From contig NZ_KB891241.1 in NCBI RefSeq assembly GCF_000373365.1, positions 124,001 through 188,000 on the forward strand: 64,000 nucleotides of DNA, written 5' to 3'. Numbering within the stretch: the first letter of the stretch is position 1; the number at the start of each line of letters is the position of its first letter. A model generated the notes under the pieces. That model saw nothing but the letters and a program-made list of their open reading frames with translations, was not told where the DNA came from and did not search any database. Below, piece by piece: positions 49,860 to 51,260 of this stretch. This DNA comes from Parafrankia discariae (GTDB lineage Bacteria > Actinomycetota > Actinomycetes > Frankiales > Frankiaceae). A program made the translations under genes and the position numbers.

Positions 49860-50085
49860 CGCGGCGACCGCCGAGGCCCGCCCGTGGCCTGGCTGCCGGC
49901 TCGGTCACAGGCCCCTCGCCAGCCACCCTGCCGGCACCCTTGCCGGCTCGGCCGTCGGTCGGGCTCGTTCGGGCGGCGACGCTCGGCGTCGGGCGGCCCG
50001 GTGCGGCCACCCGCCGTGCCGGGGGTATGCGCGTGGTGTGCCGGAACCACCCGTTCGGGTGGGCACCGGCGTGTCGCTGCGGCTT

Positions 50086-50099
50086 CGAACGGATGTTCG
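50086..50099 (+). promoter_or_regulatory. LexA (SOS) box of recA
   Basis: CGAACGGATGTTCG matches the Gram-positive SOS box CGAAC-N4-GTTCG exactly, with perfect dyad symmetry. It lies 85 nt before the predicted recA transcription start. Confidence 0.85.
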
Positions 50100-50106
50100 G
50101 CTAGTG

Positions 50107-50133
50107 TTGTCCACATGCGCTCAGTTGTCCACA
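50107..50133 (+). promoter_or_regulatory. Two DnaA-box-like TTGTCCACA sequences
   Basis: TTGTCCACA occurs at 50107-50115 and 50125-50133, in the same orientation and 18 bp apart. It is the actinobacterial consensus DnaA box. They lie between the SOS box and the recA promoter; whether DnaA binds is unknown. Confidence 0.6.
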
Positions 50134-50154
50134 GAGGCCACCCGGCTATCGAAA

Positions 50155-50183
50155 CTGTCGGACCCACCCCCTAGCGTCGGATC
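50155..50183 (+). promoter_or_regulatory. RecA-NDp/PafBC-type promoter of recA
   Basis: CTGTCGGAC (50155-50163), 8 nt, then TAGCGT (50172-50177). It keeps the TGTCGG core, the exact N8 spacing and the TANNNT box of the LexA-independent damage promoter. Predicted transcription start near 50184. Confidence 0.6.
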
Positions 50184-50222
50184 GTGGCCAAGACTCGAGG
50201 ACCTCAGCCGGGAGTAACCCAA

Positions 50223-51260
50223 ATGGTAGGACCCGACCGCGAGAAGGCGTTGGAGAACGCCCTTGCGCAGATCGACAAGCAGTTCGGCAAGGGCTCGATC
50301 ATGCGGCTGGGTGACGACACCCGCCCGCCGATCCAGGTCATCCCGACTGGATCCATCGCCCTGGATGTCGCGCTCGGTATCGGGGGCTACCCTCGCGGGC
50401 GTGTCATCGAGATCTATGGGCCGGAGTCATCCGGAAAAACCACGGTCGCGCTGCACGCGGTGGCGAACGCGCAGGCGGCCGGCGGCATCGCGGCCTTCAT
50501 CGACGCCGAGCACGCGCTTGATCCGGAGTACGCGGGGAAGCTCGGCGTCGACACCGACGCGCTGCTCATCTCCCAGCCCGACACGGGGGAGCAGGCGCTG
50601 GAGATCGCCGACATGCTGATCCGTTCCGGCGCGCTGGACATCATCGTCATCGACTCGGTCGCGGCGCTGGTACCGCGGGCCGAGATCGAGGGGGAGATGG
50701 GCGACAGCCACGTGGGTCTGCAGGCCCGGCTGATGTCGCAGGCGCTGCGGAAGATCACCGGGGCGCTCGCGAACTCCGGCACCACCGCCGTCTTCATCAA
50801 CCAGCTCCGCGAGAAGGTCGGCGTCATGTTCGGCTCGCCGGAGACCACCACCGGCGGAAAGGCGTTGAAGTTCTACGCCTCCGTCCGGCTCGACGTACGC
50901 CGCATCGAGACGCTGAAGGACGGTGCCGAGGCGGTCGGTAACCGGACCAGGATCAAGGTGGTCAAGAACAAGATGGCCCCGCCGTTCCGGACCGCCGAGT
51001 TCGACATCGTCTACGGCGGCGGTATCAGCCGCGAGGGCTCCCTGATCGATATGGGCGTCGAGCACGGCATCATCCGCAAGTCCGGTGCCTGGTACACCTA
51101 TGACGGCGACCAGCTCGGCCAGGGCAAGGAGAACGCGCGGTCATTCCTCCGCGACAACCCGGATCTGGCCAACGAGATCGAAAAGCGGATCAAGGAGAAG
51201 CTCGGTCTCTCCCCGACGCTGGACGCTGACGCTCCCGCACCGGTTCCGGTGGACCTCTGA
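50223..51260 (+). CDS. recA: Recombinase RecA
   Basis: RecA forms filaments on single-stranded DNA for recombination and LexA cleavage. It has 345 residues, full family length. Motifs: GPESSGKT (Walker A), [12 protein letters not shown] (Walker B), loop L1 [21 protein letters not shown], loop L2 with [23 protein letters not shown] at 50223 has GGAG at 8 nt and matches the family N-terminus. However, a GTG at 50184 sits exactly 6 nt after the -10 box and is in frame, so a leaderless form 13 residues longer is possible. No intein is present. recX follows after 11 bp. Confidence 0.98.

Follow-up and report, generated by a model that had tools for sequence, protein, structure and literature searches.

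A composite recA control region in Parafrankia discariae with LexA and PafBC-type promoters, predicted DnaA boxes and two candidate translation starts

The DNA upstream of recA in Parafrankia discariae raises the question of which signals set the supply of RecA, and whether the gene gives rise to one protein or to two. Few bacterial proteins have been studied as thoroughly as RecA, which is commonly regarded as a single form under LexA control. The window analysed here is a stretch of 64,000 nucleotides (contig NZ_KB891241.1, positions 124,001 to 188,000 of the forward strand) from a genome of 7.89 Mb, in which the recA control region at positions 50086-50222 was read base by base. The recA gene itself (50184-51260, plus strand; TIGR02012, 572 bits at a cut-off of 325) encodes 358 amino acids if read from a GTG codon and 345 if read from a downstream ATG. 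We consider it probable, judging from the DNA sequence, that this is a composite region with two promoters and two starts, in which PafBC would give a long RecA, LexA a short one, and DnaA would tune the output. A sigma-70 consensus scan of positions 49900-50300 returned no promoter and no terminator, and such a scan is uninformative for this organism. An Rfam match inside the coding region was rejected as sub-threshold (14.3 bits; the gathering score is 72).

Upstream regions of recA were compared in three sets: the Frankiaceae, named genomes and a genus-spread sample of the class, the last with 80 loci from 282 genomes with a recA match, out of 296 class genomes. The closest named relative in the named-genome set is Candidatus Frankia nodulisporulans, the recA of which is 91% identical. 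A PafBC motif was located in 142 of the 160 loci, and the 18 loci without a motif by pattern are outside the slot counts given below. The Streptomyces-type set is composed of 9 named Streptomyces and 30 loci of another genus with the same peptide, the latter taken from 41 matching genomes, four of which contain two recA matches (G287, G308, G333, G334).

The first signal is a LexA (SOS) box, which the initial annotation described as perfect. The sequence CGAACGGATGTTCG at positions 50086-50099, a perfect inverted repeat without strand, is indeed free of mismatches; it has the palindromic form CGAAC-N4-GTTCG, is kept in the Frankiaceae relatives and is the only zero-mismatch match to the tested LexA pattern in the window. 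Two nucleotides 3' of the box lies TAGTGT (50102-50107, plus strand), which is likely to be the -10 element of a LexA-controlled promoter. Among the Frankiaceae and named loci, 58 of 61 CGAAC-N4-GTTCG boxes are followed by TANNNK at a distance of 0-4 nt, mostly 2 nt. A LexA protein is encoded in the genome (PF01726, 99.5 bits at C140:190895-191086).

The second promoter is of the PafBC (RecA-NDp) type, with the element CTGTCGG at -26 (50155-50161), which is kept in the Frankiaceae, and the -10 element TAGCGT (50172-50177), both on the plus strand, the latter from the base-by-base reading and the pattern scan. The general pattern, TGTCR followed by a TANNNT -10 element with 11 nt in between, is found here as TGTCG-N11-TAGCGT. 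The full RecA-NDp consensus is TTGTCRGTG. The sequence in the window, CTGTCGGAC, departs from it at the first base (C for T) and at the final triplet (GAC for GTG), as do most Frankiaceae, so that of the RecA-NDp-like promoter claimed in the initial annotation the placement of TAGCGT 6 nt from an in-frame GTG stands, while the element is imperfect. The Streptomyces recA in our sample carries TTGTCAG-N10-TAGCGT; according to the S. venezuelae LexA paper, the mycobacterial PafBC motif is seemingly not conserved in that species (PMC9380542). PafBC is described as binding single-stranded DNA and then activating transcription through sigma adaptation (PMC11804915). In this genome, two adjacent WYL genes are located near the PafA gene on contig C1; their naming as PafB and PafC rests on position, and an NCBIfam equivalog search gave no match. 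With both sites kept in relatives and both regulators apparently encoded, the dual damage control by LexA and PafBC proposed earlier fits. Such control of recA is already known, and RecA-NDp promoters have been published for Streptomyces and mycobacteria (PMC5656591, PMC8223512, PMC5087735).

The genome contains eight strong PafBC-type sites, of which recA is one, and none for the reversed pattern. At four of the eight, recA, exonuclease III, adenosine deaminase and dapA, a start codon with a well-supported reading frame lies 6-8 nt past the -10 element. The PafBC-type promoters of the last three (adenosine deaminase, L206; exonuclease III, L208; dapA, L209) are thus placed for leaderless mRNAs, with an RTG codon 7-8 nt past the -10 element.

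At recA, the GTG codon (50184-50186, plus strand) begins 6 nt past TAGCGT and is in frame with the ATG at 50223-50225 (plus strand), 39 nt further on. The initial annotation had noted a well-spaced Shine-Dalgarno sequence before this ATG, and GGAG is found at 50211-50214 (plus strand), 8 nt 5' of it. The intervening stretch (50184-50222, plus strand) encodes an N-terminal extension of 13 codons, valine or methionine plus 12 more residues, basic in character, and the two predicted RecA forms differ by these 13 residues. The TANNNT -10 element stands 6 nt before a GTG that has no Shine-Dalgarno sequence, an arrangement like that of leaderless genes with ATG or GTG starts, which are common in Mycobacterium tuberculosis (PMC3898074). 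By its spacing, the GTG coincides with the position where transcription would be expected to begin, a point left unstated in the earlier note. The long form would therefore come from a leaderless mRNA, with each promoter favouring its own form.

The arrangement recurs in related sequences. In the Frankiaceae, a GTG is located 6-7 nt past the -10 element and is in frame in 32/32 tested loci, 12-14 codons before the ATG. The Streptomyces-type loci have an in-frame RTG in 39/39 cases (GTG in 36, ATG in 3) at 12-13 codons, and family f19 has an in-frame ATG in 16/17 loci, at 18 codons, the failing locus being L221. Across these three clades the RTG lies 6-9 nt past the -10 element. In-frame upstream starts were also seen in Micromonospora, Actinoplanes, Actinocatenispora and members of families f4, f8, f9, f26, f28 and f40. 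Counted by lineage, of the 12 entries with ATG or GTG at 6-8 nt, 10 show an open, in-frame stretch (p = 5e-4, with 1/3 expected), the failures being f24 and one f9 locus. Many lineages are without a leaderless start, and in loci with no upstream start the ATG and the start position share a frame in 16 of 67 cases, a proportion expected by chance.

One explanation would leave the upstream GTG unused and explain the frame and the codon patterns as side effects of conservation in a 5' leader. The Shine-Dalgarno sequence must indeed be kept in part of the stretch, and an inverted repeat at that sequence, found in 29/32 Frankiaceae, could add a constraint at the RNA level. We consider this explanation highly improbable. 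Within clades the distance from the -10 element to the RTG shifts by single bases, whereas that from the RTG to the ATG is always a multiple of three, so that insertions and deletions between the starts occur only in threes. Changes by codon position number 6/13/23, 4/3/14 and 16/9/18 in the three clades; the third position takes 55 of 106 pooled changes (p = 6e-5), a bias that reaches significance in the first two clades but not in f19 alone (18/43, p 0.15), these counts being based on small clades and a quick tree. A leader would also not account for an RTG that is kept through exchange of ATG and GTG, nor for the basic peptides, with a mean tail charge of +3.0 in 22 representatives compared to 0.16 when the same DNA is read in its other frames, and the frame is not kept in the leadered lineages, as seen from the 16/67 above.

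The inverted repeat is a feature in its own right. It encloses the inner Shine-Dalgarno sequence (50211-50221 in the window) as GGAG-NNN-CTCC or a close variant in the Frankiaceae, with a weaker version, GGG-AGTAA-CCC, in the window. On some transcripts it could mask the inner start.

The coding signature of the tail would equally suit an opposite explanation, that the long RecA is the sole product and the inner ATG encodes an internal methionine, so that the locus has a misannotated start and no switch between two forms. There is a precedent in the M. tuberculosis LexA, which was re-annotated in the same manner as a leaderless longer form (PMC2897130). Three lines of evidence make this unlikely at recA. 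A Shine-Dalgarno sequence precedes the inner ATG in 32/32, 39/39 and 14/16 loci of the three clades, 85 of 87 in all, as compared to 0/87 before the RTG. The separate LexA promoter persists, and the RTG on its leadered transcript has no Shine-Dalgarno sequence. The homologous ATG is moreover the start in lineages without the tail. The RTG pattern reads as that of a start working only at the 5' end of a message, and the inner ATG as a start for any message. The existence of two RecA forms, which the initial annotation called only possible, thereby gains strong support from the frame, the third-position bias, the start-codon identity and the Shine-Dalgarno pattern.

Counted over distinct Frankiaceae recA loci, 32 of 34 keep the in-frame start and two do not. 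The 32-locus start set, to which L106 was admitted only with the relaxed element ACGTCGG, leaves out three loci. L110 is identical to L002 in its upstream sequence. In L116, which comes from a 3 Mb genome, the box and the start codon are both lost. The third, the second recA copy of G001 (L087/L115, contig C137), is 92% identical; it is without the box, its PafBC -10 element has decayed to AAGCGT and the frame of the extension is lost, while the LexA box is kept. This copy could be a true paralog, or else foreign DNA that entered the assembly.

The 358-residue form was modelled with AlphaFold on 27 sequences; the model is of low confidence (mean pLDDT 59), and residues 1-16 have pLDDT values below 50 and no secondary structure, which is in keeping with a flexible tail without proving one. 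A search of solved structures returned RecA entries, the best matches mostly starting at residue 15-19 of the long form. The tail may distinguish the two forms in function; it could also be tolerated rather than useful.

The third signal concerns replication. Two identical actinobacterial DnaA 9-mers 18 bp apart had been claimed, and both are in place: a distal putative box TTGTCCACA at 50107-50115, which overlaps the position where the LexA promoter is inferred to start, and a proximal one at 50125-50133, the centre of which is about -55 from the inferred PafBC start. Both are on the plus strand, with 18 bp from start to start and a gap of 9 bp, and they are the only two exact copies in the 64 kb. 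As only 36 copies of the pattern TTRTCCACA occur genome-wide (7.89 Mb), compared to 22 of the reversed pattern, the two in the recA promoter are not expected by chance. E. coli DnaA is reported to prefer a double box spaced 2-3 bp (PMC11317965), a spacing that the recA boxes, 9 bp apart, do not have.

Exact boxes in gene orientation were identified between -300 and -60 in 31/34 Frankiaceae, 24/46 named and 18/80 class-sample loci, as compared to 0, 0 and 1 loci, respectively, in reverse orientation, and 0.01-0.08 loci per set in dinucleotide shuffles of the recA upstream regions, in which the gene-oriented exact box gave 0.01-0.05. None was found 300-540 bp upstream of recA in 159 loci, nor in 31 loci of the named-genome set that are mostly from outside the class (L051-L081).

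To relate the boxes to the promoters, a looser box, [TCG][TC][AGC]TCCACA, was used. The proximal box starts, in nearly all cases, at mostly -30 to -33 from the PafBC element, and the position of the LexA box relative to that element varies from about -28 to -153. Because the offset of the box is fixed and that of the LexA box is not, the box appears to travel with the PafBC promoter and not with the LexA box. The proximal slot (-29 to -34) is filled in 28/33 Frankiaceae, 19/37 named and 35/72 class-sample loci, representing 19/33 families, and the distal slot (-47 to -65) in 14/33, 10/37 and 16/72 loci. Outside both slots there were 4 matches in 17,892 positions, and in reverse orientation 6 matches between -70 and -9 over all 142 loci. 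Relative to the inferred start of transcription, the box is centred at -55 to -59 in the three clades.

The slot is not filled everywhere. The proximal box is present in 32 of 39 Streptomyces-type loci and missing in 7, and it is missing in 37 of 72 class loci, with 0/6 in f4 and 2/12 in f17; the named Mycobacterium loci (L011, L012) and several other lineages have no box in the slot. In four close relatives of the same genus (L083-L086) the proximal slot contains ATGTCCACA and the exact box is in the distal slot, so that an exact pair is not a constant feature of the genus. An association is seen between the leaderless start and the proximal box (26/34 versus 28/75, p = 2e-4 with kinship ignored). 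A link of DnaA boxes to PafBC promoters in general was considered and rejected: at seven of the eight strong sites of the genome, the 90 bp upstream contain no TCCACA box, and recA alone has a DnaA-type box.

The 9-mers could be sites for another protein, a promoter-upstream element that resembles a DnaA box, or sites that serve only to titrate DnaA. The binding of DnaA is a prediction, and the preferred form in the slot, TTNTCCACAG, is one base longer than the classical box. The variants found in the slot (TTG, TTA, CTA, TCG and TCA, each followed by TCCACA) are nevertheless those that we take to match the actinobacterial DnaA box. The same 9-mers occur near replication genes of this genome, which also encodes DnaA: an exact box is located between dnaA and dnaN, and three lie within about 155 bp upstream of dnaB (L270, G000:C129:254200-257400). 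Titration, for its part, would not need a fixed position at a promoter. We therefore hold these alternatives to be quite unlikely; the recA region, with a consensus 9-mer at a constrained place, very probably carries DnaA sites. The coupling to replication initiation through DnaA, earlier suggested with a perhaps, is strengthened by a predicted box that is fixed in position and orientation across the class, and the related sequences suggest that the layout is old and common to many actinobacteria.

Two further sites were seen in the genome. An exact DnaA-type box in gene orientation is located about 59 nt upstream of recQ (L264, G000:C112:48700-51700), which suggests a wider link of DnaA with recombination genes. 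An exact TTGTCCACA pair 21 bp apart (L271, G000:C129:267222-267251) precedes by about 310-330 nt a gene that, judged by eye, resembles inositol-3-phosphate synthase.

As to the sign of the effect, the main rival is a purely repressive role, in which DnaA acts as a repressor or roadblock that limits recA, as for uvrB, recN and dinJ in Escherichia coli. DnaA has been reported to limit SOS genes in that species (PMC6015884), and the distal box covers the inferred start of the LexA promoter (P2). Repression would, however, need neither the single orientation nor the fixed offset upstream of the PafBC promoter (P1), and the proximal box is upstream of the P1 core promoter rather than within it. We regard a purely repressive role as possible, with the balance against it.

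In the arrangement that we favour, with two promoters, two starts and tuning by DnaA, P2 (the LexA box and TAGTGT) would start near 50114 and give a leadered mRNA, on which ribosomes would use GGAG and the ATG to make the 345-residue RecA, since the GTG has no Shine-Dalgarno sequence there. P1 (CTGTCGG and TAGCGT), dependent on PafBC, would start at or within 1-2 bases of 50184; with its start at the GTG, the mRNA would be leaderless and read from that codon, yielding the 358-residue RecA with the basic 13-residue tail, and some short form might also be made from the internal ATG. DnaA is predicted to occupy both boxes. The proximal one, at about -56 of P1 and in one orientation, would fit a contact between DnaA and RNA polymerase that tunes P1, and the distal one, overlapping the P2 start, would fit occlusion of P2. 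The supply of RecA and the ratio of its forms would then follow both damage, through LexA and PafBC, and the state of replication initiation, through DnaA.

Parts of this layout resemble known systems. In the mycobacterial recA, with its LexA promoter P2 and its RecA-NDp/PafBC promoter P1, the LexA promoter is likewise upstream and the PafBC-type promoter nearer the gene (PMC5656591, PMC8223512), but the named Mycobacterium loci in our set, besides the empty slot, have no in-frame start at the P1 start. The Streptomyces recA has the same type of promoter (Ahel 2002, cited in PMC5087735), and the S. coelicolor gene is used as a UV-inducible positive control; the passages on recA in that paper make no mention of a DnaA box or of a leaderless longer RecA (PMC5087735). 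In E. coli, DnaA and LexA sites also occur together on repair genes, uvrB and recN, where DnaA represses and one DnaA box overlaps the LexA box (PMC6015884); the P. discariae case differs in that the slot keeps a constant distance from a PafBC-type promoter and belongs to recA itself. The LexA of M. tuberculosis, also an SOS-regulator gene, has a translation start that is the transcription start and an N-terminal extension, with one form, shown experimentally (PMC2897130), compared to two starts, both predicted, for recA here. We found no report of a DnaA slot at recA or of an extended RecA in the openly licensed literature.

We propose, tentatively and with some reservation, that across much of the class recA receives an input from the replication initiator and yields two RecA proteins by promoter choice, in which case the kind of RecA made, and not its amount alone, would report the origin of the signal, be it PafBC sensing single-stranded DNA, the cleavage of LexA or the replication cycle. 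If so, in Frankia-type, Streptomyces-type and several further actinobacteria the RecA made from the inner ATG would lack 12-18 N-terminal residues, and RecA purified from the inner start would be incomplete. The matching of DNA repair capacity to replication initiation would become testable. It would also suggest that PafBC-type promoters can be leaderless, so that other damage-induced proteins of the phylum may have unannotated N-termini.
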